Below are positions 1 to 64,000 of a stretch of DNA of 64,000 nt, piece by piece. A program made the translations under genes and the position numbers. Origin of the DNA: Gracilaria domingensis (lineage: Eukaryota > Rhodophyta > Florideophyceae > Gracilariales > Gracilariaceae); assembly GCA_022539475.1 (NCBI GenBank), contig VCMS01000296.1, positions 61,707 to 125,706 of the forward strand. The letters are read 5' to 3'. The notes beneath the pieces were generated by a model, which saw only the letters and a program-made list of their open reading frames with translations, was not told the DNA's origin and did no database searches. Every line of letters starts with the position of its first letter. The first letter of the stretch is position 1.

Positions 1-893
1 GAGCTTGAATTCACACCAGTTTGGATATCTTCCGTTATTTCCCTATCTTCTTCGGCGACAGGCCCCGGTTATGCCGCAGTATTCGGTGTTATTTCGTTAT
101 CGGAACTATCTTCATGTGCCATAGCCTTAGACACGAGAGGCTGCAGGCATTCTGTGTCCACCCTTGGCACGGCTCCGAGCTCCAACTCCCGTGTCTGTCC
201 TCCTCCATTGCATGGTATATCAGATGAATTGGGCCTCGTACGAGCTGCAACGGCCCCCGTTCTGGAAAGAGGGGAAGGTCGAAAAGTAACTCGTCTATCA
301 GTTGTCTCTCGATTTCTTATTGTCTTTCTCCCTTGTCCGGACCCATTGCGAGGCATGATACGATTCATAGCGGCCCCAGTTCTAGAAGACAGGGATGGAA
401 GTGACGATCTTAATATACTAGGGCTCTCACGACTTCTCGTCATTGTCCCTTGTTGTCCAGATCCACTGGGCGGCGTAACCCGCGCCCCAGTAGCTCCGGT
501 CTTCGATATCGGCCGGGGACATGAAGGTTTTGGTGTCATACGAACCTCTTCGGTTCCAGTTGTCATGCCCTCCTGTCCTGACCCGCTGGGCCGAGTTACC
601 TCATCTTCTTGAGGAGCAGAGACAGATGCACGATTTGCATTATCGGTAGTTGACGGCACGACATCGTTCGCTGATCCACGAATTCTTGACGCAATCCCGG
701 AAGACGCTCCGCTACGAGATGGGCGAGAGAGTCCTGTAGAAGGACGCTCACTGACTCTCTCCTTCGTCGAGGACGACTTCCGTTTAGGAAGTGCGGTGCT
801 TGTAGCCTGATTCGTATCATCCGATGCTCTTCTCTTCTTCTGTCCACTCTTGTTCCGCTGCGTACTATTTCGCTTTCTCGGCGTTATACCCAT
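1..893 (-). pseudogene. Element block A: N-terminal part of the disordered/coiled-coil gene, cut by the window edge
   Basis: Third gene of the element, running off the left edge. It starts at ATG 893 (MGITPRKRNSTQRNKSG...). The product is rich in Ser, Thr, Arg, Pro and Gly and looks disordered. It contains an imperfect repeated module built around P-(S/N)-GSGQ, with at least three copies between residues of about 100 and 200. The equivalent gene in block C (46,407-48,638) has one long module fewer. An in-frame TAA at 69-71 replaces a Leu codon of the block C copy; beyond it the frame continues to the edge, so this copy is broken. It lies downstream of, and on the same strand as, the methyltransferase-SET gene. 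The function is unknown and no enzyme domain was recognised; basic N-terminal clusters would suit a nuclear protein (inference). Confidence 0.7.
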
Positions 894-1141
894 GTTGTGG
901 AGATAAACAGGGTAATGAAACGAAATTGTTGGGGAGGGGGGGAGGGGGTGGGGGGGGGTGCATGGTTCAGATATTCCGGGAGACTCCGCAGTTCCTGCTT
1001 TTTAGGAATTTGAGGTGCCCAATGGGTCGCAAATATCGCCGTTACAGATGAAGAGCTCCAGTGCACATGTACAACAACGCGTATTGCAGGCAGCTGCAAC
1101 ACTCACAAGCATATTTACTTTCTCTTCGGTACTGAACTCAT
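894..1141. other. Block A spacer between the MTase-SET and coiled-coil genes, with poly-G runs
   Basis: This short spacer is conserved in block C (48,639-48,897) and, in part, in block B (44,034-44,173). It holds the 5' region of the coiled-coil gene. At about 930-960 the + strand is almost pure G, as it is at about 48,677-48,715 in block C. Run lengths differ between copies, so exact lengths may be unreliable. Confidence 0.6.
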
Positions 1142-4100
1142 CTATTGCTCCAATGTCAGAGCCCAATCCCAGGCGTACTGCTCTCCGTAGTTGAAATACA
1201 ACTCTTCGCCCCTCTCAATATCTCTTACTGCTCTACAACGAAGTAGAGCATAGTTAAAAAGGTCTGACTTAAACTGTATCACGGACTTCGCTTCCACCAC
1301 CTGCACATTGGCACTTCGAGTCCTGTTTGACCGGGGCTCCGATAAATCGGGATCCCCGGCATGATATCCGGCGTCGTTAATGTAGCCCCCGATACAAAAA
1401 GGCGCCGGGACAATGTAGACTTCGCTCTCCTTTCTATCCTGAGCCTGTCCTGGTCTGTTCCTCAGGTGCAGAAACTCCGTACCAGTCACAGTGACCATCA
1501 TAGAAAACAACTTGTACCGCACTGGAGTTGCTCCGAGACAGCCACTTCCATACGTTAAGTGTCTTTCCTTCCGGTTCGTCAGATCCGTGTATACCAAAGT
1601 TCCATAGAAATGACAGATAGTTTCCCCAGCCAATATCTTATGTTCCGTGAACACCCCCATACCAGCACGGGGATGTCGAATCTTAGAAGATGCTATATGT
1701 AAGCGATAGCGATTGGCTTCAACAGTCAACAGCATATGCATATCCATAAGATTCAGAGCTCCTCGGTACTTCCCCTCCCAAAGATCTACAGTACGCTGTC
1801 CACACTTCTCGACAAAGTCCCAGTCCTTCCAGTATCTTTCTAGGAACTGAGTAATATGTCCAGGCATCACTTGGTACTGGGGGTAACCAAATGGAGCCTC
1901 CCATTCAAGCCGACCTCGGTCCCGATGTGGAACCCGTTCATAGGTCGTTGAAGCCGCATCCACCACCTCCTGTTCAACCAGGATGTCATTCTTCCCCCCG
2001 CGAATAACTTCGGCCATAAGAGTCGTTAGATGGTGCTTTGCATGGCTGAAACATGGCCTATTCTTCTCGCACCCTAAGAACTTCCTATGCTTTGTCAGCG
2101 ATAGGCACGCCATACCCGTAGAAAGAGTTCCCGCGAACATGTCCATGACAAGATCACCCGGTCTTGTGAAGCGACATATCAACTCCTTCATCAACTCCCT
2201 CGACTTCTGCTCCGGTCTTATGTACTGCCCACCTGGTACTGAACTACCTGGCTCATGTACCTTCCATGTCAACCACTCCCCCGCTCTCGGTTTGGGCACC
2301 CAGTCAATTACATTCCTGTTAGCCGGGAAAGTAGAAGGAATGAAATTGTTCTCCTCAAATGGAGTAAGACTGGCTTCCTCCGATGATCGCAATCCACGCT
2401 TCACCCCATGAACGGCGTACTCCGTTACGGGCTGTATCCCAAACTTCCGTGGATCCTCCAACATTACTGCGATCCCGGATGAACACCAGTGGATTCGCAT
2501 CCACTTTAAACGAAAGCATGAGTTCTGGTTTACCTTCGCTTCCAGCTTCATCTTTCGTACTCGCTGTTTCCGAAAGTATCCTGTGCCACACATGAAACTG
2601 TGCCATGGCACAAATATAATGAAGTGCCCACCTGACCGAAGCGCGGAACTTATTAAGTCAGCCGTACGGATCATGTCTTCCTCACTGAAGACATCGTGAC
2701 CACTATTCCGTTTGTTCCTCTTCCTTCGAGTGTTAAAGGGAGGGTCTGTTAGGACAAGCTGTGCCTCACCACATAAAATCTCACTCTGATTCACAAACGT
2801 TTCGTGTGTGTGCCTCAGGTCCGTCATGTCACAGTTGTACGCTACAAAGTGTGACTTTCTCATCCCCTTCCACACCTTGTGCATATTCATTCGAAGGAGA
2901 CTGGATATCCCCTTCATGGGCGGCTCAATACCAGTCTTTTGGATGTTGTAACCGGCAACCCGAGATTCATGCTCCGCAAGATTCACCGGCTTCTCGAACT
3001 CGTCGCTATCGGAGCTCACGAGGTTCATATATCTCGACGAGGTGGGGGTGGGGCAGACTTGGTCGAAGAAGGTTCGGCATTACCGGAAGTTTTAGGGGTT
3101 TTCGTCAGTTCAATATCAGGTTTCGCGTGAATGCCGACATGGAACCCTGCCGCATGACGCATATCCTGTATCGGTTTCCATAGCAACTCCGAAAACTTCT
3201 GAAATCGAGCAGGCAACTCACCGGAGTCAGAGCTAGATACGGTATCCATCCGTATCTCCGAAAACTCTATCCAGTTCCTCATCTGATCAACCCGTAAGCT
3301 ATAGAGGCTATCGTGGGTGCATATGGTTTCGAGGTCTGTCAAAAACTCCTTAGCCAGTATTCGCAGGTTTGTATCGCATTCATCACTCAAGGTCTCCACC
3401 GATCCACTAGTACTGCTCTGTGGCACATCCTTTGTGTTGAATCGAGTACTCTGGCTCGGCGGGGCATAACCAGACTCCCGTGTCTCTAGCGCTGTATACT
3501 TCAACGTCTGCATATTCATGTAAATGTATGGTTTCACCATGTGCTGAACGTTCGTGTATCCAAGATGAGCCGCAAAACAACTCCATGCCCATACGACCTC
3601 ACTGATAGCGAATCCCAGTCGATCACAGTTGTCTTTGGAGAACCACGTAAAAGTGGGTATGTACACAGATGGTGCATGGTTCACTTTTCGTTTCTTTTTC
3701 GGTTGTTTCTTCTTCATCATTCGGATGTTGTCGTTCTCTCCCATTATGTGGCCGAGGTATGATAAGTATATAACGACCTCAAATGGGTTCACAGCTGTTG
3801 GTGGGATGAACACTGTCGTCTTCAGAACCTGCTTTCTCCTGGTCATGAAATAACCAACCAGGCATCGCACCGGTAGGTATATACCCATATCCATAGAGAG
3901 AAGGAAAAAATCGCGCAGTCTCTGGTCCTCATCCCCGTCCTTCTTGTCAAGAAGCTTCGTTACAAGATATCGTGTTCCACAGGTTTGTTATTCACAACAC
4001 TCTTTCGCAGCTGTTGCAGTGTCAAGTTCTGCAGGTTCTTGGAGTTAGTGGCCTCCTCAAACATCTTCCTTGCCTCCGGAATATCCTTATAGTTCTCGGC

Positions 4101-4273
4101 GCAGAACTCTATTAACCCTCTAAACCCCACGTCCCGTGGCGATCAGGGCCTCCATCGCTGTTTGCCAAAGCATCGCGAAGAACCAAGAAAAGTCTGACAT
4201 ATGCATGGAACGCCGGAGGCGGAGCACTCATGTCGATAGGATGTATCTCCTCTCCAACATCGGTGGAATCCAT
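1142..4273 (-). pseudogene. Element block A: DNA methyltransferase-SET domain fusion, frameshifted
   Basis: A predicted chromatin writer with two catalytic modules. Reading from ATG 4,273 on the minus strand there is an N-terminal helical region, then a classical nuclear localisation signal (KKKQPKKKRKVNH). Next is a beta-class exocyclic-amine DNA methyltransferase with motif IV DPPF (near 2,735) followed by motif I FAGT (near 2,130). A C-terminal SET domain (about 1,170-1,690) has INDAGY, SANVQ and GEELYFNYG motifs. DPPF favours N6-adenine methylation in this family, which is inference. The gene is broken by single-base indels near 3,030, 3,975 and 4,137. The region near 3,750 keeps two bases that blocks B and C have both lost, so this copy preserves the frame there. 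It is divergent to the ParB-dioxygenase gene across the palindrome region. Full length would be about 1,045 residues. Confidence 0.85.
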
Positions 4274-4290
4274 CGCTTCAGCGCAAACAA

Positions 4291-4388
4291 CGGAGGCGAG
4301 CCTTTAAATGGCGACTTACGCTGGGCACCCCCGCTTTCGGCAGCTCCTCCCAGCGCACTGCCAGTCTCGTCCGTGTCCGTGTCCGCTC
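4291..4388 (-). promoter_or_regulatory. Block A, mirror promoter of the MTase-SET gene
   Basis: About 100 bp just upstream of the MTase-SET start. It contains a TATA-like TTTAAA about 35-40 bp before the ATG. It is an almost exact inverted copy of 5,555-5,649, which sits in front of the divergent ParB-dioxygenase gene. The same pair occurs in block C (52,045-52,145 and 53,608-53,702). The promoter role is inferred from position, conservation and the TTTAAA. Confidence 0.6.
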
Positions 4389-4448
4389 GGAGCGATAGCG
4401 TCGCGTCGGAGCGATAGCGTCGCGTGTCGGAGCGATAGCGTCGCGTGT
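4388..4448. repeat. Three tandem copies of a 19-bp GATAGCGTCGCG-containing unit
   Basis: The unit CGGAGCGATAGCGTCGCGT is repeated at 4,388, 4,407 and 4,428; the third copy is separated by GT. Block C has only a single equivalent near 52,180-52,200. It lies between the MTase-side promoter and the palindrome array. Confidence 0.85.
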
Positions 4449-4572
4449 CGGCCACGTCGCGATTCGGAGCTATTGCAACGGTCCCGTATTGTGCTAAAAG
4501 TCGCGGATCAAGTGGGTGTGAAGCGCTAGTTTTCTCTAGTTTGATATATGTGCACGGCGTGTGCAGCGAAAT

Positions 4573-5290
4573 CACTGCCGGAAGTGCCGGGAGGAGTGTT
4601 TTGGGAGGTCTCCGGAAGGCGCCGGAATGTGCCAGAACGTGCCCGCGGGCGGGGGGGTCGGTCGTGTTAGGGTAGCTACCCTAACACGACCGGACCCCCC
4701 CGCCCGCGGGCATAAAATCGCACATTTTTCAAAAAATCGTCCAAAAGTGCCCGCGGGCGGGGGGGTCCAGTCGTGTTAGGGTAGCTACCCTAACACGACC
4801 GACCCCCCCCCGCCCGCGGGCACGTTTTGGACGATTTTTTGACACCCTCCGGAGACCTCCCAAAACACTCCTCCCGGCACTTCCTGTACCCACTGCGTCA
4901 CCTCAGTGCACCATCCCGGAAATTAGGGAGTGTCTGGAGGGTGGAGAAGACGGGATGGTCACCTCAGTGCACCATCCCGGAAATTAGGGAGTGTCTGGAG
5001 GGTGAAGATGACGGGATGGTGCACTAAGGTGACGCAGTGGGTACAGGAAGTGCCGGGAGGAGTGTTTTGGGAGGTCTCCGGAGGGTGCCAAAATGTGGCC
5101 AGAACGTGCCCGCGGGCGGGGGGGGTCGGTCGTGTTAGGGTAGCTACCCTAACACGACCGACCCCCCCCCGCCCGCGGCACGTTTTGGGCGATTTTTTGA
5201 AAAATGTGCGATTTTATGCCCGCGGGCGGGGGGGTCCGGTCGTGTTAGGGTACCTACCCTAACACGACCGACCCCCCCCGCCCGCGGGCA
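4573..5290. repeat. Block A palindrome array in the divergent intergenic region
   Basis: Four units of 73-75 bp: 4,640-4,712, 4,748-4,822, 5,107-5,180 and 5,217-5,290. Each is a near-perfect palindrome. The outer arms are GCCCGCGGGC plus a G-run, the inner arms are GGTCGTGTTAGGGTA and its complement, and the centre is TAGCTA or a CC/GG variant. Units are joined by a linker of the type CGTTTTGGACGATTTTTTG. A second level of symmetry surrounds them: an arm containing GGGAGGTCTCCGG occurs at 4,573-4,628 (+), 4,843-4,918 (inverted) and 5,012-5,088 (+). A 61-bp tandem duplication lies between the latter two (4,898-5,018). No coding capacity is credible here. Confidence 0.9.
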
Positions 5291-5554
5291 CGTTCTGGCC
5301 ACATTCCGGGCCTTCCCGGGACCTCGCAAAACACGCCGCCGCGCAGTGATTTCGCTACACCCGGCCGCCGGTACGTTGGCGCCGCTGTCCACGTGTATTT
5401 GCGGGAGTAGGCTGTACATGGAAGTGAATGAGTGTACTCTTGACTACTATGCAAAGCATTTGAAGAGCATGATTGAGAACGCGACCATTGCTCGCGTGAG
5501 TCATCATTGCGCGAACTCCACGACTCTAAAGCGTACAATCAGTGTGCGAGCGGC

Positions 5555-5649
5555 CACGGACAGACACGGACGAGACTGGCAGTGCGCTGGGAGGAGCTGC
5601 CGAAAGCGGGGGTGCCCAGCGTAAGTCGCCATTTAAAGGCTCGCCTCCG
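5555..5649 (+). promoter_or_regulatory. Block A, mirror promoter of the ParB-dioxygenase gene
   Basis: Inverted duplicate of 4,291-4,388, sharing the stretch from ACGGACGAGACTGGCAG to TTTAAAGGCTCGCCTCC. A leader of about 60 bp separates it from ATG 5,713. It is conserved in blocks B (33,335-33,427) and C. The promoter function is inferred. Confidence 0.6.
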
Positions 5650-5712
5650 TTTTGTATCGTCCAGAGCGAGCGTATTGTTGATATACACCTTTCACTGCAA
5701 TAGCTGTTCAAC

Positions 5713-8700
5713 ATGAAGCCAACTCGTGTTCGAAAGCGTACGCAAAGCGTGACTCCTCGCACTCGGCGGAGCACTCGATTATTGCAAGGTGGAATGCGGG
5801 TTTCTCTGCAGATGGATATTGAGGATGAAGGAAAGGTGATAGTCGGGGAAGCGTTGTTGCATGGAATTGGAAGTGTTCTACGCCGCGAGTTGCACGGGAA
5901 GCAATTGGACCCAGGTCTTGTGGTGGTTCATAATATTCTCATCAGTCGAAGCGGTCAGACGTTCTACCCTTACCGGGCGGAGGGCCTGGATCTTCCACAA
6001 TATATCCAGGATCTCCGGACGGCCGCTCCTTGGGATGAGAAAATGATGGAACCGGTGGCAGCCAGCATTCCGGCGTCGAAGCGAGGAACGGTGAGCGCTA
6101 TGAGTGAGGTGATGACGCCGACAAGCCGCACGGAGCCAATTCGAAGTTCATCAACACCGAGAGGTAGCGCATCAGTACCACCTCCGCGGGCAGGTCCGTC
6201 GTCTGTTACGAAGCGGTCTATGGAGACGAGAGATCCCCAGCTACGAAGCGGACAGGTCAAACAAAGTCTACCTCCGCTACGAAGCCCACTGCGTCGAAAA
6301 GGGCTTCTCCTGCGATGAATCAGACCGTCGACACAAGGGGATCTTCTGCGTCGAAACAGACGGTTCAGCAGGGGACGGCTGTGCAAGAGGAGGAAGATGA
6401 GATCATGAAAGGTCCCCTTCCAGACGCGGATGCGCAATCCGCGCAAGGAGCTGGTCCATCTGTACCCCAAACTGCACCAGAAACTGCGGAGCAGCAGGAC
6501 GATGACGTTGTGTTTCTGTCCGCAAGAATGGCACGTTCAAGTGTTTCTGGCGAGCGGTCTGGAACACAAGGGACACCTACTCGGAGCAAGACGTACAGAC
6601 GAATTCGTCAGAAGGTACCAAAGGTGAACCTCAATTACTACCGGNCCAAACTGCACCAAAACTGCGGAGCAGCAGGACGATGACGTTGTGCTTCTGTCGC
6701 AAGAATGGCTACGTTCAACATGTTTCTGGCGTAGCGGTCCGGAACATCAAGGGGACCACCTACTAGGAGCAAGACGTACACGACGAATCGTCAGAGGTAC
6801 CAAGGTGAACCTCAATCAGTACCGGACTGGTGTTGTTATTTGTTGACATCACTCTGGTGGACGACCCGCCCCAATTTACTGACTCCCGTTGGAGTAAGTA
6901 TACGCCACGTTGAAGCCTTGTGAGGGTATGGAGGTAGGGGGGATATTGGCAGTCGGGGATGGGTTCTCCAGTGGTGGCCTTACAAGATGCTATCACGGAG
7001 AGAGGGATAGCCTGACAAGGAACGCCTAAAAGAGAAGTGCTGTGATTGTAGATGGTTTTGCATCGTCTGAAGCTATACATATTTGGCATCCCGCGACTGG
7101 TGCAACCGATGGAAAGGATTAGCCAAGTTTTGGCGTTGCAATCCTCTGATACGAAGAGATGGGAGGCCCATTGGGATGGAAGGAATTGTTATGTGTCTGT
7201 TGTAGCCTCAATGAGTCGACGAGTACCAATGGTCGAAGGATGATGTTTGGCAGACAAGATACACTCTATAAGGTTGTGTGGTCCCCCCGGCCCCCCATTT
7301 TTCCTAAAAAAATAAAAGTGAAAAATTTTTTTTTTTTTTTTTTGGGGGGCCAAGTGGGGGTGGACCCGCCCCCGGCAGACGCTGGTATCCTGCAGAAGTG
7401 ACAGAAGTGTGAAGGAGAGCCACTGATTGGGACTGGTGTCAAGAGCGTCTAGTACGTAATATGCGAATGTCGCCCTGCCAACTCATGTCTCGTGAGGAAT
7501 GCTTGGCCATTTCGAGGATATATGTGAGACTGTGACGTGACAATAGGTTCACACATCTGTCCAATACTTCCGCTATATGTTTGCGATGGCCGGAGAGTTT
7601 CCTTCATCTTGATTGTCTTCCAGATGTTTCTATTGAGGGCAATCGACGAAGACAAAGCAACTGGAAAACGCTTTGAGGAGTTCGAGGTTTTCTTTTATGA
7701 TAGAGCAGTGTCCCCTCTGTTCCGCGGCGGCTAGAGCAATGAGGAATGACTGAACGAGGAAGAGTCTGCATGGCCGTGTTCACTACACCACCGACAACGC
7801 GAAGTCAGTCTTCTGCTCATCGAATGAAAGATTACATTGAAGACCCAGAACAAAAGCAGCTTGTGTACGAGTTCCTTTTGGACAAGTTGTGACTTCACAC
7901 GATTGCGCGGTTGTTCGAGCATAGGACGAACTCAATTAGAAATGCCACGACATCCGTTCATGCAATCGATTGGACGATGCTCACGGTTATCCCCCGCACC
8001 AGTTAAGCAGTCCGTGACGGAAGAGGAGGACTCCAGCGTTGCTGCTGCAACATCTCGCATGAAGAAGGGAAGCGCGAGAAAGTGCAACGAGAGGGCGCAG
8101 GTGCGTTATAGGCCGAAATTTGAGCACGGCAGAAATCGAGTGCCATAGAAGTTCTGATAGTCTGAAGAAGAACAGTCGGGCTCCGCCGAGGAACGCACGG
8201 GAAAGACTTTACCAACAGATGAGTATCTACTCTGAACAGATGAACACCGATGAAACTGATGTCTCAACTAATGAACATGGCTGAGAGAAGTTCGATCGAC
8301 AAAGGTCAGTTCGTGGCATTGGGGAGAGGGAGCATGCATGAGAACGCAGGCAGGTTCTGCATTCCGTGGATTGAGATGAGCTTCTTTCTGTGACAGTTCC
8401 ACGGGTGTCAGCATGAGAAAGATTGCTGCGTCCAGAGATAAGCAAGAGACAGGTGGGGGGTCATTTGAATGACGAGTTACATCACAGCTTTCCGGAATCT
8501 GAGGAGCACGGCACTTGTTCGAGGTGACCCATAATGATGGCCCACCGAACCCATCATGGTGGCGGGGCATGCCCAGGCTGATAACGTCAGGAAGGCAAGG
8601 GAAGAACGTAATTGGAGCACAAGGCCCTGCTCAGAGTCATTCACTGCCCGAAGGGACATAGTCGAGCTGCCCTAAGTTCTCGAGATCTCAGAGATGACAA

Positions 8701-9180
8701 CCATTTGTCTTTGTGGCAGCGCTGCAAGGGCTGAACATCGCCTACGGGCGGAGACTTGGTACGCAGTATGCCTCGTAACTGAAACGACAGGTATGTGATG
8801 ATGAAGAGGTGCTGTGGTTGCCGCGGAAGGAGCATGACAAATTTGGGCAAAGTTCTTCGCCGAATGAGCAAGCTGAGATAAGGCGAAATGGAATATGTGT
8901 GCTTGATGGTCGCGGACGGATAATGGTGTCCCTAGAATGGGAGGTAGTTGGAAGAAGGTTCGGAGTTTCGCGAGATGATGCTGGGAAGGTGGTGGACTTC
9001 TTCGAAGAATGAGTATGGAGCGCATGCCGGATATACGGAAAGGAGAGGAACAGAAATGTTTGTGTCAAATAATCAACCGTGATGGAAGGAGGAAAGACGG
9101 TAGCGATGGATCCATTTGAGGGGGAGAGTGATGTCGACACGTGGGGGTAGGTGGAGAAGCCGGAGGATAACGAAGGAGTC
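5713..9180 (+). pseudogene. Element block A: ParB-like/2OG-dioxygenase fusion, heavily disrupted
   Basis: The start (ATG 5,713, MKPTRVRKRTQSV...) and about 165 codons match blocks B and C, after which a frameshift near 6,230 breaks the frame. An N at 6,645 follows, and the preceding 178 bp are then repeated with errors (6,646-6,825). From there to 9,180 the sequence follows the block C gene but with indels every few tens of bases. A foreign-looking homopolymer stretch sits at about 7,281-7,370. The ParB region (about 6,830-7,250), the basic middle part and the beginning of the dioxygenase part (8,790-9,040) can be followed. Homology ends near 9,180 inside the dioxygenase region. This copy spans the joint that blocks C and R lack, showing that the ParB and dioxygenase parts belong to one gene. 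Much of the damage may be assembly error, not biology. Confidence 0.75.
6467..6825. repeat. Error-containing direct duplication around an assembly N
   Basis: 6,467-6,644 is followed by N at 6,645 and then by a second, indel-rich version of the same sequence to 6,825. Blocks B and C carry this sequence once. It is best read as an unmerged gap-fill or contig overlap. Confidence 0.85.
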
Positions 9181-39117: not shown

Positions 39118-39185
39118 AGATAGTAGCATAAATTTATTGTTTATTACATTGTTACCTTTACGTGTTATCACAACTAAATTCTCCG

Positions 39186-53764: not shown

Positions 53765-56473
53765 ATGAAGCCAACTCGTGTTCGAAAGCGTACGCAAAGC
53801 GTGACTCCTCGCACTCGGCGGAGCACTCGATCATTGCAAGGTGGAATGCGGGTTTCTCTGCAGATGGATATTGAGAATGAAGGAAAGGTGATAGTCGGGG
53901 AAGCGTTGTTGCATGGAATTGGGAGTGTTCTACGCCGCGAGTTGAACGGGAAGCAATTGGACCCAGGTCTTGTGGTGGTTCATAATATTCTCATCAGTCG
54001 AAGCGGTCAGACGTTCTACCCTTACCGGGGGGAGGGCCGGGATCTTCCACCATACATCCAGGATCTCCGGACGGCCTCTCCTTGGGATGAGAAAATGATG
54101 GAACCGGTGGCAGCCAGCATTCCGGCGTCCAAGCGTGAAACGGTGAGCGCTATGAGTGAGGTGATGACGCCGACAAGCCGCACGGAGCCAATTCGAAGTT
54201 CATCAACACCGAGAGGTAGCGCATCAGTACCACCTCCGCAGGCAGGTCCGTCGTCTGTTACGAAGCGGTCTATGGAGACGAGAGCATCCCCAGCTACGAA
54301 GCGGACAGGTCAAACAAGGTCTACCTCCGCTACGGAGCCCACTGCGTCGAAAAGGGCTTCTCCTGCGATGAATCAGACCGTCGACACAAGGGGATCTTCT
54401 GCGTCGAAACAGACGGTTCAGCAGGGGACGGCTGTGCAAGAGGAGGAAGATGAGATCATGAAAGGTCCCCTTCCAGACGCGGATGCGCAATCCGCACAAG
54501 GAGCTGGTCCATCTGTACCCCAAACTGCACCAGAAACTGCGGAGCAGCAGGACGATGACGTTGTGCTTCTGTCCGCAAGAATGGCACGTTCAAGTGTTTC
54601 TGGCGAGCGGTCTGGAACACAAGGGACACCTACTCGGAGCAAGACGTACAGACGAATTCGTCAGAAGGTAGCAAAGGTGAACCTCAATCACTACCGGATG
54701 GTTGTTGTTACTGTTGACATCACTCTTATAGACACTCCGCCCAATTTACTGCTTGGAGTACGTAAACGCCATGTTGAAGCCCTTGTAAAGAGTATGGAGG
54801 AGCGGGGGATATTGCAATCGATGGGTTCTCCAGTGGTGGCCTTACAAGATGCTACTACGGGAGAGAGAGATACTGACAAGGGACGCCTAACGAAGAAGTG
54901 CTTCATTGTAGATGGTTTACATCGTCTGAAAGCTATAAAATATTTGGCAGCGACTGGTGCACCGAAGTGGAAGCGATTAGCCAAGTTTTGTTTTTGCAAT
55001 CTGCTGTTACGAAGAGATGGGAAGCCCATTGGGACGAAGGAATTCTTATGTGTTGCTTCGTACCTCAATGAGTCGACGAGTACCATGCGAAGGATGATGT
55101 TTGCAGACAAGATAAACTCTATAGTTAGTGTGGTCGCCACTCTAATTGAAGATGTTGAGGGGGTGACGCTGGCAGACGTGGATCCTGCAGAAGTGACAGA
55201 AGTGTTGAAGGAGAGCCAACTGATTGGGACTGTGCAAGAGCGTCAGTATCTGAGATATGCCAATGTCGCCCTGCAACTCATGTCTCGTGAGGGAATGCTG
55301 GCCCATTTCGAGGAAATATGTGAGACTGTGAATGACATAGGTCTCACACATCTGTCCCATACTCCGCTATATGTTTTGGATGCTGAGGAGTTTTCCTTCA
55401 TTCTTGATTGTCTTCAGATGTTTCTACTGAAGGGCAAGTCGACGAAGACAAAGCAATGGAAAAGCTTTGAGGAAGTTCGAGGTTTCTTTTATGATAGAGC
55501 AGTGTCTCTGTTCCGCGCGGCTCGAGCAGTGAGGAATGAAGTGAACGAGGAAGAGTCGATGGAAGTGTTTCTGAAACGCAAAGTCAGTCTTTCTGCTCCA
55601 TCGCATGAAGATGACGTTGAAGACCCAGACAACATCGCAGCTGTGAATCAGTTCCTTTTGGGACAAGTTGTGAACTTCAACACATTGCCGCGTGTTCGGA
55701 GCAGGACGAACTCAATTAGAACTGCCGCTACTTCCGTTCAGAATCGATTGCGGACGATGCTCAAGGTAATTCCGCCGCCCGCACCAGTGAAGCAGTCCGT
55801 GACAAAGAGGAGGACTCCCGCTCCTGCTGCTGCAACATCTGCCAGTGAAGAAGGGAAGCCGCGAAGAAATGCACGAGAACGGGCGCAGGTGAGTTATAGA
55901 GAAATTGAGCACGGCCGAAATCGAGGTGCCATAGAAGTTCTGGATAGCTCTGAAGAAGAACAGCGGGCTCCGCCGAGGAAGAAACAGAGAAAGACTTTCA
56001 CACAACAGATGAGATCTACTCTGAACAGCATGACACCGGATGACCTGATGTCTCAACTAAATGAACATGTGCTGAGAGGAAGGTCGATGAAGGTTCAGTT
56101 CGTGGAATTGGAAGAGGGAGGGAATGCAGAGAACGCAGGCAGTTCTGCATTTGTGGATGACGAAGAGCTTCTTGGTGTGACAGCTCTACGGGTTGTCACA
56201 GTCGAGCAAGAGGCTGCGCCAGACGATCAGCAAGAGACAGGTGGGGGGTCATTTGATGACGAGTTACCTACAGCTCTTCCGGAATCTGAGGAGCACGGAC
56301 TTGTTCGAGGAGACCCATATGATGGCCCACCGAACCCATCATGGTGCGGGTATGTCAGGCTGAGACCGCAGGAATGGCAAGGGAAGAACGTAATTGAACA
56401 CAAGGACCCCTGGCTCAGAGTCATTCACTTGCCAAAGGCACATAGGTCGGAGCTGCTAAGTGTCTCGAATGTC
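53765..56473 (+). pseudogene. Block C: ParB-like/2OG-dioxygenase gene, open for about 900 codons, then cut by module X
   Basis: The best copy of the N-terminal two-thirds. Residues 1-310 are a basic, disordered Ser/Thr/Pro-rich region. About 315-440 form a ParB-like domain (RHVEALVKSMEERG, SPVVALQ, VDGLHRLKAI). About 440-640 are helical, with HTH-like helices (SYLNESTSTMRRMMFADKI). A basic/acidic linker rich in KRR and EE follows, and a GDPYDGPPNPSWCGYVRLR segment leads into the lost dioxygenase part. The frame stays open into X and stops at 56,525-56,527. Together with 62,844-64,000 the full protein would have roughly 1,300 residues. A role as a sequence-recognising DNA-modification enzyme acting on the neighbouring palindromes is inference. 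Confidence 0.85.
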
Positions 56474-56941
56474 CGTTTGTGTTCTGCAAAGTGGAATATA
56501 GTCTGTTCGCTTTGGAAACTAAGCTAGTTTTGGGGCTATTTGGGGCGCGCGAGGGGATGCCAGAGGCTGGCACTCAAAAAATTAAGAAATTTTGGAATAT
56601 TAAATTCCATTTTGCGCAGTTTAGTTCTTGGGTCCCCTAGTTTTTGTAGAGGTTCTACTTCGCCGCACCACCCCATTCACTCTTTTCCGCGACCCTCTCT
56701 CAAAACTGCACTCGTGCTAGTTTGCGTTTCCATTTTCTCCCATGTTGCAATGCCAATCGCAACTCATCCCACCTCAATCATCCTATCACTTCTTCCCAGT
56801 CCACACCACCCCCGCTATTTACCCATTTCTCGCCCATCACGCGTTCCCATCCTCTCTCTCCCTCTCCGCAAACGTCATTTTGTAGAAGTCAGGTGGACAA
56901 CCCTCCCCCTTCTCGTATACCGGCCTCGCCCCAAAACGGCT

Positions 56942-57871
56942 TCAAATCCCTCCCATCCTTCTCTCCTCCTGTCCCCTCAGAATCCCCTTCGCAGTCCGCG
57001 CTACCTCCGCCGCACTCCTAAACCCAGTCACCACCGGAGCTCCCACTCCCTCCCGCGGCACCTCCTCCACCACCTTCTTCATCTCCTTACGCCTCTTCTT
57101 CAGACGGCTCTTCCCATCCCCAACCCCACCACCCTTTGTCTTCGGTGTCACAGGAGACCCCTTCTGCACCGCCACCCTTCCTACACTTCCCTTCTCCGTC
57201 TTTCCCTCCACACCTCCTTTCATCGTCTCCTCTTCCACCAATCTTTGCCCCTTGCCCAGCTCCTTCACCTCCTTCTCCAGCACGTCCAACCTCTCGTTCA
57301 GAACCCTATTCTCCTCCCGCAACTCTCCAACCTTCCTTCCCGCACACTCCACTATCCCATACACATGATTTCTCATCTCCACTCCCAATACCGACAACGA
57401 ATTCCGCAGGCTCGAAATCGCCTCAACCGAAACACCACTACCACCCCCACTCAGCACCACACCGCCCATTTCCGTTACAATCTCCACAATTCCATCGTCC
57501 AGTTGCTCCTTCATCACCAACCCCAACATCCCCACCCTCGCCTTCATCTCCCCCACAAACCGCATCTCCCTGTCACCCTCTCCGCCCCCACTCTCTATCT
57601 GGTCTCCAACCTCTAACTGACTCAGATGCACCGCACCCCTTCTCTCCATTGCGACCCCCTCCACCTCCAATTCTACCCCCTTCTCCACCTCATCACCATC
57701 CCCTCTCCTCGCCTCACACTTCTTTCCTTCATCAGCCACTTCCTTCTTCTGCGACATCCGACCAGCCGCCGTAATCACGTCCTCTTCCCGCTTTGGTGAC
57801 GGCGTCTGCGGTACCTCCTTCCCCTCCAACAGCGCCAACAGCTCCTCATCCTTCACGTATCCGTTCGACAT
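56942..57871 (-). CDS. Coiled-coil protein of module X, copy 2
   Basis: 309 residues from ATG 57,871, nearly identical to 39,751-40,680. Differences include ALLEGK for VLLEGK, ADEGKK for AEEGKK, GRKVGE for GREVGE and LGKGQR for LCKRQR. All are substitutions with no frame damage, so both copies could be expressed. The acidic N-terminal part, short coiled coil and basic C-terminus are as in copy 1. Family unknown. Confidence 0.65.
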   Translation of the reverse strand: MSNGYVKDEELLALLEGKEVPQTPSPKREEDVITAAGRMSQKKEVADEGKKCEARRGDGDEVEKGVELEVEGVAMERRGAVHLSQLEVGDQIESGGGEGDREMRFVGEMKARVGMLGLVMKEQLDDGIVEIVTEMGGVVLSGGGSGVSVEAISSLRNSLSVLGVEMRNHVYGIVECAGRKVGELREENRVLNERLDVLEKEVKELGKGQRLVEEETMKGGVEGKTEKGSVGRVAVQKGSPVTPKTKGGGVGDGKSRLKKRRKEMKKVVEEVPREGVGAPVVTGFRSAAEVARTAKGILRGQEERRMGGI

Positions 57872-58084
57872 CTTCAGAAGAAGAAGTAGTAGTTGGATCG
57901 AAGTTTCCGCTGCGATACAGTGCAATCGAGCTAAACTGTGCTGTCCAACCCCATTGTCCAACCACACGGGCTATATCCAGCACCATGATTGTCCCTGTTT
58001 CCCTCATCCCATTTCCCGCCAAAACATCTACTGTACACCTCCGCACCTTCCACTATTTAAGCGCCATCTCTCTGTCCCCTCTTC

Positions 58085-58445
58085 ACATAGTCCCCACCCA
58101 CCTCGCCTCGACCGGCGATATTTTTCTCTTCCACCATAACCCCACTCGATGGTTATAGCAAAACAGGAAGATATTGCCAGTGGAGGAAAGCTAGGGACTA
58201 GTGATTGTACTTAGAGTTGCTCACCCTCTGTCTCGACTGGGGGCATGTTCTTCTTCTGTCACATCCTTTGTGGGTTGTGACAAAAAAAGAATATGTCACC
58301 ACTCGACACCGGATGGGTAACAATGGTAGCACGTAGAGTAGTTCATCCTCCCTCTCAGCGTCCACTGGGGATATATTGATGTTCTCTCACATCCTTTCCC
58401 GGTTGTGATACAAGAGAAATACATCTCCAATGGAGACGGAGAATA
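58085..58445. repeat. Three tandem hairpin units, X copy 2
   Basis: Inverse of 39,186-39,545; all three units are retained with a few substitutions. Confidence 0.7.
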
Positions 58446-58504
58446 TAGTCGTGATAACACGTAAAGGTAACAATGTAATAAACAATAAATTTATGCTACT
58501 ATCT

Positions 58505-58825
58505 CTAACCAACCTTTCGAAAACCAACTATGACATGAGCTGGGTTACTCGAGCCAAAGATGGCAGATCCTGCGACTGAAATGTTTGCACCGGCCTTCAC
58601 TACTGCTTTCACAGTACTCAGTCCAATACCTCCATCCACCTGTATCCCTATTCTTGGGTACAACTTCCTTGCATGTCGCACCTTATCAAGAACACCCTCC
58701 ATAAACGCCTGTCCTCCAAACCCTGGCTCCACCGTCATCAACAATAACATGTCTACAACTCCTTCCTTCATAAGTGCTTCTACGACCTTTATAGACGTAT
58801 TCGGGCGCAATCCAACTCCATCCTT
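58505..58825 (-). pseudogene. rpe: Ribulose-phosphate 3-epimerase C-terminal fragment, X copy 2
   Basis: Same 5'-truncated fragment as 38,797-39,117. It keeps PNTSIKVVEAL and VVDMLLLMTVEPGFGG, which are closer to the family consensus than copy 1. Since both copies lack the N-terminal half, the truncation came before the duplication of X. Confidence 0.88.
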
Positions 58826-59222
58826 TTAATTATGGCAATCCGAGTGAAGCTATAAAACCCGTTCACGTCATTTATGAAGCCAAAATGGCTCCTTTCATCC
58901 TGTATTCAAGCTCCCCGTAACTCGTACTTTACAACTACTTTACAACTCAGGTTCGAAATCAGTTTCATTCATTGCACACTTTCTACTCTTCCACCTACCT
59001 TTCATAAAACATCATCACACTTTGTGGCTTGTCGTCTCATACAAGCCCTATCATTCATTCAGTACAATCACATATCATACATTTCGCTCACTTTCACAAA
59101 GTGAACCATGTTCCCGTTCTGCGCTTCCCAACCGTTTGTACTTCAGTATCACTCCTTACCCTAGCAGTTCTCCGCCCCATCTTTCATTTCTATCGTCACA
59201 CAAAAACAATCGAACACTTGCA

Positions 59223-60116
59223 ATGAACTCCCAGTCCGACATGCCTCCCAGTCCGCCTCCGAGTCCCAGATACTCTGACGTCCCTCAGGCCTCATCTCCC
59301 GCCCGAAGGACTCGGGCCGTTATTGTTGGAAGGGAGCGTATAGGTACCATGCTGGCGAACGAAGAAGATACGGTCATTTCCGCACACGAATTCTGCAGCA
59401 TGGCTGCTACCTTTCATCTTTCTGATGTACCGATACTAGTTTGTGGAAGAACGAACACCCTGGAGACCGTAATTCAGGCTTGCCCTTATTCGCTCAGAGA
59501 GAATCTCGTTTTCTTCCAGAATGGAGACATCATACCATTGGTTTCGAAGCTCGGTGTGGACAAATGTTCAAAAGTTGTCCTATACGTTGGTGTCCCCTCA
59601 AGAAACGCAGCTCCGCAGGATGGTGTCATTCCTCAAAGTCCGGATGGTCTCACTGTCGCAACAGGAAAGTGGGCCTCCAACGTTGCAGACAGGTTTAGGT
59701 CTATGGGTCTCACTTGCGGGGTTGTCGACGAAGACACATTTCTCGTAAGCTATTATGAGAAGCTCGTGTGGCTATCAGCGTTCAACATCGTCGGGGCCTC
59801 AAGAGGTTTCATCCCTATGGACGTAGTCGCTACGGAGTGCAGTACGGTTGTGCTCACAATAATGAAAGAGCTGTTGAAGATAGTTTCGCTTAAGACAGGT
59901 ACTACTTTCAACCTAGAAGAGACGGTTCTTGCATATGGGAAAACTCTCGTTGGCTTCCCTACATCTTTCTCCGACTTTCAGTTTAGGAACGCGTACTTCT
60001 ACGACTTTTTCCGCCAAGAAAGAAACATCGTAGGCGGTGACCCCGCTCCTTTTCATACAAACTACGTCAACGTTGTTAAGGAAAAGTTATCCCCCTCCCC
60101 ATTCCCCCAGCTTTGA
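59223..60116 (+). CDS. Ketopantoate-reductase-like protein, X copy 2
   Basis: 297 residues from ATG 59,223 (MNSQSDMPPSPPPSP...). The Rossmann turn is VIVGRERIGTML, in which the second motif Gly of copy 1 (GRGRIG) is Glu, possibly weakening cofactor binding. The C-terminal KLVWLSAFNIVGA segment is intact. Relative to copy 1, three residues (GRL) are missing after EETV, in frame. It ends at TGA 60,114-60,116, which shows that TGA is a normal stop here. Confidence 0.68.
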   Translation: MNSQSDMPPSPPPSPRYSDVPQASSPARRTRAVIVGRERIGTMLANEEDTVISAHEFCSMAATFHLSDVPILVCGRTNTLETVIQACPYSLRENLVFFQNGDIIPLVSKLGVDKCSKVVLYVGVPSRNAAPQDGVIPQSPDGLTVATGKWASNVADRFRSMGLTCGVVDEDTFLVSYYEKLVWLSAFNIVGASRGFIPMDVVATECSTVVLTIMKELLKIVSLKTGTTFNLEETVLAYGKTLVGFPTSFSDFQFRNAYFYDFFRQERNIVGGDPAPFHTNYVNVVKEKLSPSPFPQL

Positions 60117-60743
60117 GGTTAGAACACATGACTTTTCGGTGTTGTAAACCTTTTAGAGATAGTTAAACATAAAAGTTACTTTATCGAAATGACCTGTTCC
60201 TATTACATTACTTATATTGTTCGTCCTTCTGTGGTTCAAATATGCCTCTTTAAATCCTACATCCCTTATCACTAATATTTCGCTAAGATTTTGCTAGATA
60301 GAAAATGGTCATTCCATATCATTAAAGTGCACGATACTAGTAACGAAACAAGTACAAAAATTGTGATATTTCTGAAGAACTAAGCGTTTGCATTACTTGG
60401 GGCACCCGTATAAAGTAAGGTAAACCTTTTATGGGTTTCAACCCGTAATGGAGGTTGTTTTACTCTTCTTGATTTCTAAGCTCATGTTAAAGATATTTAC
60501 AGTTTTCTTTACCCACTTGAACCCGTACATATAATTTATGAGTAAATCATCCTTTCTTTACTTCAAATCGATGCAAAAACTTCTCCTCCTAGTAACGATT
60601 TAAAACAGTACTACAATACCCGTATATGGTCGTTCTTAGACTCTTTGTATACTACGAAACACCTTGTGAACATCAATCACATCCTTCTCATTCGTATACC
60701 CACACCCATTTGCAAAACGAACCCTTTCGAAAGCTTTCAAAAC
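60117..60743. promoter_or_regulatory. AT-rich intergenic region, X copy 2
   Basis: Counterpart of 36,870-37,496. No gene; AT-rich, with the same short fold-back near 60,425-60,465. Confidence 0.45.
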
Positions 60744-61615
60744 ATGTATAACTCGGAAGTTAGAGCCCAAGAAGTAACTCCTCAGCAGCTGGCTAACGAA
60801 ATATTCGAAAATGGCTAGGCCGTGATTAGTGATGTTGACGGTACTCTGAAAAGAGCTGGGGAGAACATTCCTGCCGAAGCAGTCAAATGCATGAAGTACA
60901 TCAACGCACGCGTTGGTTTCGGAATTGCTACTGGGCGAGATATAGAGGATGCCGAGAGTTTCATGGAGCACCTGGGTGGCTACACTTTTGGCATCTCTGG
61001 AAACCAAGGCGCACGGGTGAGATTATCCAATGGTACCGAAATTGATCAGGACCTTGACAGGGAAGGTTACGAAAGATGTGCAGCCGAACTTGAGAGACTT
61101 GCACTCTCCTTAAATGAATCGCACGGACTTCACGAAGAGCGTCAACAAGCAGTGATGAGCACTAGAAAAGACAGTGGACTCCCTAACTTCACGTACAATG
61201 GACTGTCGAAGTGGAAAACAGAAGTTAACTCCGGTATTTCAAAAGTGTTGACATCCTTTCCGAACTGGTTGCGTACCCTCAAGATGAAAACTGTGACATA
61301 GGGGACATTCGTTTCACGAAAAATAGTGGGGCGCTAGCCTTGGTTGAAAACGACCCCCAGTTCGACACACATTTAATCGTTGCTTTCGGGAATGCTTCCA
61401 ATGATGGCCCTATATATGAAATGGCAACCCTGGCAGTTCATGTGAAGGGAGAAGGCCATCCAGCAGCGGTAACATATCTTGTTGATGGCGTGGAGGACGT
61501 GCATGAGACCATCAGAAGGGTGGCAGAACTGTACGGGTACACAAAATGCAAGTGTCAAAGGTTTAGAAATGCTCTTGGAATTTGTTTCAAGTGCTACGAT
61601 GCCTTTAATACTTAG
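60744..61615 (+). pseudogene. HAD-superfamily hydrolase, X copy 2, inactivated
   Basis: Same gene as 35,997-36,869. A TAG replaces the Tyr codon of ENGYAV (near 60,815), and one base is missing near 61,266 (GAACTGG against GAACCTGG in copy 1). These two events destroy the frame. The catalytic motifs are otherwise preserved, including IATGRD with the family-typical Arg that copy 1 has changed to Leu. An internal frame beginning near 60,822 still covers motif I to the frameshift. Confidence 0.88.
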
Positions 61616-61667
61616 CTATGATATGAGATCTCAGTAATAAAAGTGTCGTGTATATCTCAATACCCTT

Positions 61668-62528
61668 TTATGAATCATGGTGGTTTTTATCGTGCTGCTT
61701 TTCCTCGTAGCCGTACAACAGAGCCACCAACATAATTGTCGAATGTACATCCTCCACGCTTTTGAACAGGTTGTGTACTCCACCCGGGATACAATCTTCT
61801 TTGACGTGAACGCCGTACACGCCTACCTCATGCAAAGGCCCGTCGCTCAAAGCACTTCCGAACGTCACGACGTCATCCGTATCAATAAATCTCGGTTCAT
61901 TATCCACAAGATTTTCTCCTCCGCTTCCTTTTGTGTATCGCTTGTCCACAATTTCGCAACTTTTATCGCCGGGATAGATAAAAAACGCATCCATCTTCTG
62001 CAACAGGTCCCCAATAGCAGAATCCACTTCTTCTTTCCACTGCCACAGTTTGTTGTACACGAAATTGGGAAGGCCACTATCACTTCTGGTCTCCACGAAC
62101 CCCTTGTCATCATCATTCACAATACCATGCCTCCTATTCAAATCCCTTGCCAGGAACAGTAGTCCGTCAACAGTGTGGTCAAGGGTGTGATCATTGAATG
62201 CACCCTTAATTTCCCTCTCGTCAGAGAAACGCAGGAAAGCTCCATGATTCGCCGAGACACCAAACTTATAGTCTCCGAGTCCTTCCATTTTCCCCTCCAC
62301 GTCGCCCACATCACCCCCTGTGACAAGTCCGAAACCAGCACGTTCGTCAATGAACTTCATACACTTCACAACTTCTTCTGGAATTGACTCTCCTTCTCTT
62401 CTCAACGTTCCATCAACGGAACTTAATATACCGTAACCATTGGCATATATGAACTTAGACAAGGTATTTGGTGAAATTTCCGCCAAGTCTCTCTGTTCCT
62501 CTGCCATTTTTCCTGATACAGTCACCAT
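61668..62528 (-). CDS. HAD-like protein without nucleophile, X copy 2
   Basis: Same gene as 35,033-35,944. The first ATG of copy 1 is GTG here (62,577-62,579), so I start at the next ATG, 62,528, giving 286 residues. GILSSVDGT again has Ser in place of the nucleophilic Asp. The frame is otherwise intact with only scattered substitutions. That an inactive-looking HAD stays open while its catalytically complete neighbour is broken argues that it may have a non-enzymatic role, or that decay is simply recent. Confidence 0.75.
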   Translation of the reverse strand: MVTVSGKMAEEQRDLAEISPNTLSKFIYANGYGILSSVDGTLRREGESIPEEVVKCMKFIDERAGFGLVTGGDVGDVEGKMEGLGDYKFGVSANHGAFLRFSDEREIKGAFNDHTLDHTVDGLLFLARDLNRRHGIVNDDDKGFVETRSDSGLPNFVYNKLWQWKEEVDSAIGDLLQKMDAFFIYPGDKSCEIVDKRYTKGSGGENLVDNEPRFIDTDDVVTFGSALSDGPLHEVGVYGVHVKEDCIPGGVHNLFKSVEDVHSTIMLVALLYGYEEKQHDKNHHDS

Positions 62529-62649
62529 ACTGCCACAAGTACCGCATAGACAGGAACTGTATAGACTTCTCAGTTTCACACTTCTCTTAAAAGCAACCTT
62601 AAGTGCAGTTTCAGAAATGTTAGGACGCTACATGTTCAATTGCGAATTG

Positions 62650-62843
62650 ACTGGTGCCACCAATGATGTTAACGATACCGAGCATTTGGCATGTTGCAAT
62701 TAGACGCAACTGGACCAAAGACGTTGGACATTTGTTCAATTACCAGCCTGCCGCACCTTTTCTATGTTCATATGTATAGCCTTGTAATAGTATACTACTC
62801 TTAATACTCGCAAGACACACATAATTTACTAAACATCTCATTC
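62650..62843. other. 3' flank of the dioxygenase gene up to the X junction
   Basis: AT-rich non-coding sequence. The first part resembles the sequence after the block D relic (about 25,880-25,920). The element's right terminus may be near, but none could be identified. Confidence 0.5.
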
Positions 62844-64000
62844 TCATCCACTTCGAGGCGCTCGCAGCCTCATTATTGGCAAATCGTCATCACTACTACT
62901 CTCGAGCACTTCGGTTCTACCGGCCTCCGCTTCCACACCAATCTCCACGACCACTTGGTCTTCTTCCATGTCAACCGCCCCACCCTTCTTATCGGACAAC
63001 AGTTCATCCTCCGCCTCCTCCTCCTCGTCACCATTGACAAACGTGGGTCGGAAATCCCGCACCCGATGAACAGCATCAGGTAGTGCGTAGCCCTCTGGTA
63101 CCATGTACATGTGGTATCTAACCAGCAAATCCATAGACTCGGGCCTATCCACCTTGTCCTTCCCACTTGCTCCAGCATGTGTCACATCACCACGGCCCAC
63201 GAATACAGAGTACGGTGGGATTATTATCTTCTTCGCTGGATACACCTCCGACATCACTCGCAACTGTTGGTTGTTCATCCCCACCAGTTGATGGCTTCCA
63301 GCGCTCACCCAGAGAGGAAAGCCCTCTTTCCCAGAGGCCATTACAAAGTATCCGGGGTTGCCAGTATTCATTGTTTCCTTCGTAACCAGACCACTGAAGT
63401 CGGTGTGCAGCGTCTGGCGCTTGCACTTTCTCGTCGTCCCCAGAAATCGACCACCAGTTTTCGGAGTGTACATCTTCACAGCTTCCCTTTCATTGTCCCA
63501 TAGTTCCAAAGCCGCAGCAATTGTACCCATTCGAACATCAAGTAAAGCACGCGACCTTACAACCCACCTGAGCTCCTCATTATCCTCCGGCTTCTCCACC
63601 GTACCACAACGTGTCGACATCACTCTCCCCTCAAATGGTCCATCGCTACCGTCCTTCCATCCTTCATCATCGTTGATTATTGAACAAACGATTTCTGTTC
63701 CTCTCCTTTCCGTATATCCGGCATCGCTCCATACTCATTCTCGAAGAAGTCCACCAACTTCCCCGACACATCTCCGAACTCCCGAACTTCTTCCAACTCC
63801 TCCCATTTAGGGACATCATTATCCGTCGCAAAGCCATCAAGCACGCAATATCCACTCTGCCTTAGCTCAGCTTGCATTCGGGCGAAGAACATTTGCCCAA
63901 ATTCGTCATGCTCCTTCGCAGCAACCCACAGCACCTCTTCATCATCCATACCTGTCGGTCGGTACGAGGATACTGCATACCAAATGCCTCCGCCCGTAGG
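62844..64000 (-). pseudogene. 2OG-Fe(II) dioxygenase part of the ParB-dioxygenase gene (block C end)
   Basis: The C-terminal third of the fusion gene, running off the right edge. From the edge: GGIWYAVSSYRPTGMDDEEVLW, a helical region, then a frameshift near 63,674 (one A missing relative to block A at about 9,064). The double-stranded beta-helix follows. LHTDFSG gives the iron-binding HxD, GRGDVTHAGAS gives the distal His, and DLLVRYHMYM gives the Arg expected to bind 2-oxoglutarate. An acidic tail (EEEEAEDE...SSSDDDLP) ends the protein at TGA 62,844-62,846. Such enzymes hydroxylate proteins, nucleic acids or small molecules. TET/JBP enzymes, which oxidise modified DNA bases, share this fold, but I cannot place this one in that branch by eye. 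Confidence 0.75.

Follow-up and report, generated by a model that had tools for sequence, protein, structure and literature searches.

Does a 64-kb stretch of the red alga Gracilaria domingensis (assembly GCA_022539475.1, contig VCMS01000296.1, positions 61,707 to 125,706; hereafter the window) hold the remains of one giant transposon family, and what would such an element do with the chromatin enzymes it carries? A sequence-only reading had proposed that four blocks of the window, A to D, derive from one layout comprising a Plavaka-like transposase, a disordered/coiled-coil gene, a DNA methyltransferase-SET fusion, a palindrome region and a ParB-like/dioxygenase fusion. Self-comparison and protein mapping bear this out, and the four blocks are derivatives of one multi-gene unit. 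The family is genuine and old, a giant transposon of several genes whose writer enzyme is unusual and whose internal palindrome array is under constraint. The gene content of the window is eukaryotic (Plavaka transposase, SET), with long, intronless open reading frames (ORFs) and a G+C content of 49.5%.

A multi-gene unit shared by four blocks

The unit was inferred from adjacencies that are each observed at least once. Its order is a Plavaka/EnSpm-type transposase (+), the coiled-coil gene (-), an N6_N4 methylase-SET fusion (-), the palindrome array, and the ParB-like followed by the dioxygenase-like region (+). On the composite map, the core of the element measures ~14.6 kb with four genes, or 21 kb with an additional segment H. 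Block C joins transposase, coiled-coil gene, methylase-SET, palindromes and ParB, block A joins methylase-SET, palindromes, ParB and dioxygenase, and block D has the entire order. The recurrence of order and strands in D at 30-44% protein identity upholds the earlier view of an old unit rather than a chance cluster. To judge from the aligned proteins, the gene set is older than the split of two copies that are now 30-44% identical.

The claim of a fixed architecture in every block went too far and is true of the ancestor only, with B and C being rearranged. Block B departs from the layout by a methylase-SET gene on the + strand beyond a 6.2 kb segment, by only 52 amino acids of the coiled-coil gene, and by the absence of the dioxygenase. 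In block C, the dioxygenase lies on the - strand behind the inverted 6.2 kb segment and ~1.9 kb of the transposase are missing. The dioxygenase match of block A stops at 9192, and no transposase of this block lies inside the window.

Block D, probably a diverged relative in error-rich sequence

The strongest evidence for the unit comes from D. Using our own protein-to-DNA aligner that allows frameshifts, we ran 16 protein pieces on this block, 13 from the element and three from segment H. Seven of the 13 element pieces were recovered, all collinear with the composite map and on matching strands, in agreement with the earlier statement that D is very diverged yet keeps the order. The transposase is nearly full length (11304-14616, +; score 472 versus a maximum of 76 in 12 shuffles, over 2.9 kb; 37% identity, 339/913), and its C-terminus was recovered as a separate piece (score 100, maximum of 63 in 100 shuffles; 40%, 36/90). 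The C-terminal half of the coiled-coil gene (14768-15273, -; score 78, shuffle maximum 63; 38%, 61/162), SET (17655-18412, -; score 117; 34%, 86/253), the methylase (18475-19194, -; score 195; 36%, 86/236), the ParB-like region (23054-23997, +; score 73, shuffle maximum 67; 30%, 92/305) and the dioxygenase-like region (25180-25743, +; score 184; 44%, 78/178) each had scores reached by none of 100 shuffles. The ParB-like match is the weakest of these, followed by the coiled-coil piece. With plain tblastn, the transposase, methylase and dioxygenase were the only three genes beyond all 100 shuffles. Relative to the composite map, D is offset by 11,227 to 11,731 for the significant tblastn matches, a spread within ~500 bp over 13 kb, and by 11,620 for the palindromes.

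Several candidate matches in D were set aside. The N-terminal methylase ORF had its best score of 63 in the wrong place (+), and at the expected place its score of 57 (-) was below the shuffle maximum of 60. A piece of the ParB gene scored 66 in the wrong place, which 1 of 100 shuffles reached. Weak tblastn matches at other offsets (ParB, both coiled-coil pieces and one ORF) were not counted. Ten more ORFs, all but one from D or its surroundings, gave no Pfam match above cut-off. An Umbravirus_LDM match in 12345-13082 (E 0.0095, 15.8 bits, cut-off 25) overlaps the D transposase and was taken as chance.

The broken look of D had been taken as a sign of great age, a view that the frameshift density does not favor. 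Summed over the 6,686 nt of the seven recovered pieces, there are 146 frameshifts (~22 per kb) and 12 stops, a count that leaves out two unsupported pieces, MTNN and MTN, and the noisy part of A has 28-37 frameshifts per kb. A well-read diverged pair used as a control, the two HAD-like genes HAD1 and HAD2 (46-47% identical), gave 0, 0 and 1 frameshifts. The broken look of D would thus stem mainly from error-rich sequence, because D, like the noisy part of A, is rich in frameshifts and poor in stops, and the control is nearly free of frameshifts. On the same grounds, we do not take D as a relic known to be decayed. By these counts, D is probably a diverged relative that was badly sequenced rather than a relic, with some decay possible.

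The window contains two single Ns, at 6645 and 28275, with no further N between them, and block D falls within this interval. Aligned to B or C, positions 6646-9178 of block A show 52-70 gap openings per kb, compared with 0 to 6.5 per kb in the remaining alignments of 400 bases or more when these lie outside palindromes, and ~10-22 within palindromes. The error-rich stretch begins after the N at 6645 and probably extends to 28274. At the first N, 6467-6644 matches 6646-6825, an unmerged overlap of 180 bases.

The internal palindrome array

An array of palindromes lies between the divergent methylase-SET and ParB genes, within a larger inverted repeat. The outer arms of this repeat measure 92 nt in A and 102 nt in C and lie at the 5' side of both genes. 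The palindrome core CGTGTTAGGGTA-NN-TACCCTAACACG occurs 16 times according to palindrome scans, with four units in the intergenic inverted-repeat region of A (4286-5651), seven in the array of B (32215-33121) and five in the region between the divergent genes of C (52047-53702). Fifteen cores are exact and one has a single mismatch, and the core occurred 0 times in 100 shuffles. Over the 16 units, the 24 arm positions have a pairwise identity of 99.5% and the two central bases of 54%. Beyond these positions, the aligned units agree at 65% over 40 bases to each side, with gaps counted. Block D has two palindromic units at the corresponding position (21191-21695), with a sequence unlike those of A to C, and one of the two contains a perfect 22 bp palindrome. 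A scan of the whole window (gap of at most 8) found no other palindrome of such strength inside D.

These patterns suggest that the palindromes are a coevolving protein-bound site, because the dyad is conserved around a free centre and the position is kept while the sequence changes. Homogenization by conversion could also make the units alike, which fits less well with flanks that are not homogenized.

The divergent methylase-SET and ParB genes have an inverted leader of ~100 bases in common, at 52047-52148 and 53601-53702 in C, with a counterpart at 4289-4380 and 5560-5651 in A. The leader contains GTAAGT, which reads like a splice donor, and a short leader intron is possible.

The methylase-SET protein

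The proposed DNA methyltransferase-SET fusion was confirmed by both Pfam domains occurring in one ORF of 898 codons from stop to stop, which is uninterrupted in block B (41317-44010, with the upstream part cut at 41116). N6_N4_Mtase (PF01555) matches with 55.5-59.8 bits against a cut-off of 26.7 (E 1e-14), and SET (PF00856) with 31.2-34.9 bits against 22.4 (E 3e-7). The methylase has the motifs DPPF at 348 and FAGTFSTG at 552, which we take to be the catalytic and the FxGxG-like methylase motif, in the permuted (beta-class) order. In D, DPPF is kept and the second motif is degenerate. The nearest solved methylases are the adenine enzymes DpnA and CcrM, with an N4-cytosine enzyme lower in the list, and the best PHROG match is phrog_67, a family of phage DNA methylases (8.5e-20). 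Among PDB entries, KMT2A comes closest to the SET part (E 0.007). The SET part contains YINDAGYH at 803, which we read as departing from the canonical NHS, and GEELYFNYG at 861, presumably the catalytic tyrosine motif. The N-terminus of the protein carries PKKKRKV, presumably a stretch of the nuclear-signal type.

Selection was assessed as the ratio of nonsynonymous to synonymous substitution rates (dN/dS), using the Nei-Gojobori method on aligned codons and leaving out gapped and stop codons. The ratio for methylase-SET is 0.56 between B and C (z 2.4) and 0.59 between B and A (z 2.6). The frame of the gene is broken in A (1145-3987, -; Pfam and protein mapping) and in C (48889-52046, -; protein mapping, including an upstream ORF at 51384-52046). 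The start of the methylase-SET ORF is overlapped by a second ORF in another frame, at 41115-41477 in B and 51384-52046 in C, which could reflect an intron, a frameshift or a separate gene. The 3' end of the gene has a near-perfect 80 bp palindrome in B only (43955-44034).

ParB-like, dioxygenase-like and coiled-coil genes

The identity of the ParB-like region was sustained in part. The top four PHROG matches of its domain of 110 amino acids are all ParB-like partition proteins, with E-values of only 0.0015, 0.0018, 0.035 and 0.15, and for the entire region of 980 amino acids the best ParB match is at 0.054. In Pfam, the domain of C matches only GmrSD_N, at 0.09, and that of D has two unrelated weak matches. 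GmrSD_N is presumably a fold related to ParB. NCBIfam returned nothing useful for the domain. A DGxHR-type motif reads VDGLHR in C and IDSAHR in D. The AlphaFold model has a predicted local distance difference test (pLDDT) score of 40 for the ParB-like region, and that of the dioxygenase-like region, at 32, is too low for a fold comparison. A Foldseek search with the former model, which yielded nothing below E 0.001, was not counted as evidence. Of the proposed ParB-like/dioxygenase fusion, the adjacency stands: the two regions are contiguous in A, in error-rich sequence, and a similar distance apart in D. The two could belong to a single protein.

The dioxygenase-like region of C contains the motifs HTD, THAG and RYH, and D retains HTD and RYH. 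From these motifs alone, the region may encode a dioxygenase, as the earlier reading proposed. The loose metal-triad pattern also arises in 589 of 2000 shuffles. A strict version of the pattern (1 of 2000 shuffles) was chosen after inspection of the sequence and was not used as evidence.

Transposase and element ends

The transposase was correctly recognized as Plavaka-like, with a match of the B protein to Plavaka (PF18759) at 68.3 bits against a cut-off of 26.3 (E 8.7e-19). The left end and transposase of B span 29094-32085 (+). The transposase ORF extends over 29162-32323, and its final 238 bases stem from the palindrome region, past a deletion junction at 32085. Plavaka/CMCT transposons have C(2)C and H(3-4)H motifs between the second D and the last E, and mostly 5'-CA..TG-3' termini with a target duplication of 2-5 bp, according to the available portion of PMC12730594. 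The transposase of the element contains CHRC at 466, HNLH at 565 (a spacing of two, not three to four) and YEHAH at 767, and D has CHRC, HNFH and EHAHLLFK, with catalytic residues assigned by reading. The dN/dS of the 3' part is 0.41 between B and C (z 2.3).

Blocks B and C have a left end in common, GAAGTACACC, at 29094 and 44931, with unrelated flanks. As aligned, the two blocks begin at one base of the element, as a transposon end would. Two strong palindromes lie outside the element to the left of the start of block B (28527-28567 and 28859-28898).

Rearrangements of the copies and segment H

Block A (1 to 9192) starts with the 5' part of the coiled-coil gene (1-1137, -; main piece 71% in tblastn to C). 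Beyond its methylase-SET gene and palindromes, the ParB-like gene runs into the dioxygenase-like region (5530-9192, +; self-comparison and protein mapping), which is error-rich after 6645.

In block B (29094-44174), the transposase directly abuts the palindrome array according to blastn (junction 32085), with the coiled-coil and methylase-SET genes missing there. The array is followed by a truncated 5' part of the ParB-like gene (33307-34962, +; 88% in tblastn to C), which ends after about residue 197 of 327, and by segment H (34963-41121). The methylase-SET ORF and the first 52 amino acids of the coiled-coil gene occupy 41116-44174 (+), inverted relative to A and C (Pfam N6_N4_Mtase, SET).

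Block C extends from 44931 to the window edge at 64000. Self-comparison and protein mapping place its left end, a transposase with an internal deletion, and the C-terminus of this protein at 44931-46407 (+). The deletion removes the counterpart of B 29194-31087. The disordered/coiled-coil gene (46410-48893, -) consists of two ORFs assumed to be one gene, the C-terminal ORF being also matched in D. Beyond the methylase-SET gene and palindromes, the ParB-like gene with its PHROG ParB matches (53585-56468, +) reaches an inversion breakpoint. It is followed by segment H, inverted according to self-comparison (56471-62649), and by the inverted dioxygenase-like region, recognized by motif reading only, which occupies two frames and reaches the window edge (62847-64000, -).

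The two copies of segment H (6.2 kb, in inverse orientation, 62649-56471 in C) are 97.7% identical. The segment contains two convergent HAD-like genes, 46-47% identical to each other, one of which is above the Pfam cut-off for Hydrolase_3 in B, and a third gene with a GRGRIG stretch and no family match. The dN/dS of the H genes ranges from 0.40 to 1.37 and is not significantly below 1. Segment H might be cargo of the element, which would then have more than four genes and ~21 kb. After undoing the inversion of C on paper, H adjoins the same gene in B and C, and the left flanks of B and C differ. The three H genes, however, were not recovered in D, where 12, 28 and 38 of 100 shuffles reach the real scores. 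Furthermore, H diverges by 2.3% between B and C, compared with 4 to 6.5% for parts of the element, so that a separate history or homogenization is possible. We regard a cargo role as doubtful.

No tRNA or Rfam matches were found in the window. Neither six window proteins nor the palindrome pattern had relatives in IMG/VR, and two window proteins had none in GTDB contigs, with the limit that single-protein searches reach close relatives only and such misses say little.

Relation to known elements

The passage on En/Spm elements of Chondrus is reportedly by Arkhipova and Yushenova (2019), and Iyer and colleagues (2014) are said to have published a paper on KDZ/Plavaka. The earlier statement that the gene set was not known is too strong, with giant En/Spm elements of C. 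crispus (PMC6431247) and fungal Plavaka elements with TET/JBP genes (PMC12730594) being on record in the portions available. The giant En/Spm (CACTA) elements of Chondrus crispus (Kojima, Bao and Jurka 2013, cited in PMC6431247) share the CMC-group transposase and have 4-5 ORFs over 16-20 kb. The excerpt of PMC6431247 does not describe what these ORFs encode. Fungal Plavaka and EnSpm elements carry TET/JBP genes (Kojima 2025, PMC12730594, as excerpted) and likewise pair a transposase of the Plavaka type with a dioxygenase-like gene whose presumed role is to oppose silencing. However, the word "ParB" is absent from the main text of that paper, and its excerpt describes no methylase-SET gene in such an element, treats methylases as enzymes of the host and assigns SET genes to other transposons. 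The element reported here has HxD, whereas HxE characterizes the PE type borne by Plavaka (same excerpt), and its dioxygenase-like region is at most a candidate TET/JBP enzyme.

The N4CMT protein of bdelloid rotifers likewise couples a permuted N6_N4 methylase of bacterial type to a chromatin domain in a eukaryotic protein. It has a chromodomain in place of SET and is not described as transposon-borne in the portion of PMC8885841 available. The DPPF motif of the methylase reported here points to adenine, unlike N4CMT. Retrotransposons with captured cytosine methylases are also mobile elements with their own DNA methylase, but with a C5-cytosine enzyme in a retrotransposon (excerpt of PMC5890265). 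Phage phrog_67 methylases and ParB-like proteins are the best PHROG matches of the two regions, which here sit within a DNA transposon of a eukaryote, the methylase being fused to SET. The excerpts of PMC13297926 and PMC9861306 contain nothing on such elements. The class of giant multi-ORF En/Spm elements is already known, and there is a fair chance that Repbase already holds these sequences.

Alternative explanations

We consider it probable that the family belongs to the Plavaka/EnSpm (CMC) group of giant DNA transposons and acts on its own chromatin. A number of observations weigh against this reading. No whole copy is present in the window, and all four are incomplete or damaged. Six of the 13 element pieces were not recovered in D against shuffles with the frameshift-tolerant aligner, namely the N-terminal coiled-coil ORF, two N-terminal methylase-SET pieces, two ParB-gene pieces flanking the domain and the N-terminal dioxygenase piece. 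Support for ParB is weak, as the Pfam ParB models match neither C nor D. For the dioxygenase-like region, searches of Pfam, PHROGs, NCBIfam and PDB sequences gave nothing significant, and its distal histidine reads F in D. Of two PDB profile searches based on C+D alignments of two rows, one gave a chance-level match (E 2) and the other none. Not significantly below 1 are the dN/dS values of ParB (0.71 for B-C, z 1.2; 0.88 for C-A, z 0.2), of the coiled-coil gene (0.93 for C-A, z 0.2), of the methylase part alone (0.67 for B-C, z 0.9, and 0.50) and of the SET part alone (0.57 for B-C, z 1.6, and 0.76). The earlier reading had proposed to look for copies with shared termini and target duplications, of which only the left end common to B and C was found. 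It does not begin with CA, and no terminal inverted repeat, target duplication or right terminus was detected within the window.

Chance clustering or assembly chimeras, with unrelated genes joined by repeat misassembly, could be invoked from the error-rich sequence of A (6646-9178) after a single N, the second N at 28275 and the odd junctions of B and C at segment H. Block D, though, repeats the order, strands and spacing of the unit at 30-44% protein identity, which is beyond a misassembly of near-identical repeats and makes this explanation very improbable. A far more serious contender is that the families are the giant En/Spm elements with 4-5 ORFs already deposited in Repbase from Chondrus crispus, with accessory genes known to curators, to which we assign a little less than an even chance. 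Long intronless ORFs fit a red alga and count in its favor. The size and gene number found here also fit the 16-20 kb and 4-5 ORFs of the C. crispus elements (PMC6431247, citing Repbase Reports 2013), and a table in PMC4455052 gives 1181 C. crispus families in Repbase, both sources as excerpted. The content of the C. crispus ORFs is not stated in the PMC6431247 excerpt, however. No methylase-SET gene in such an element, or in any transposon, was among the matches listed in a literature search that missed most subscription papers and Repbase Reports.

Repressive marks are often the product of SET enzymes, and the methylase-SET protein might accordingly silence the element itself or its rivals and limit its own copy number, in analogy to the marking of bdelloid transposons by N4CMT. 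In rotifers, a bacterial-type N6_N4 methylase acts in transposon silencing, but N4CMT is a horizontally acquired, host-maintained gene (both from the available part of PMC8885841). A dioxygenase beside the writers, if real, suggests the removal of marks instead. Self-silencing is a live alternative, if a rather unlikely one.

A proposed self-marking mechanism

Returning to the transposon acting on its own chromatin, we suggest that the transposase would move the element by a CMC-type cut-and-paste mechanism. The methylase domain might write a base mark on the chromatin of the element, by its DPPF motif probably N6-methyladenine, and the SET domain might add a lysine mark. The palindromes would keep an element-encoded DNA-binding protein, most simply the ParB-like one, at the shared promoter. 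Once bound, this protein could focus the writers and the dioxygenase on the promoter and keep it open against host silencing, while the dioxygenase-like region, should it be genuine, would erase or modify a host mark. As a hypothesis, self-marking of chromatin fits the gene set. A stronger version, which we put forward tentatively and consider improbable, is a partition-like module in a eukaryotic DNA transposon, in which the ParB-like protein would bind the internal palindromes, spread, and recruit the methylating enzyme and the oxygenase to create a private chromatin state.

If the self-marking reading is true, one polypeptide of a mobile element would mark DNA as well as protein, and the element would include its own targeting site. 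The family would then be a compact natural model of how a selfish element establishes its chromatin state, and it might represent a possible route of bacterial-type adenine methylases into eukaryotes.

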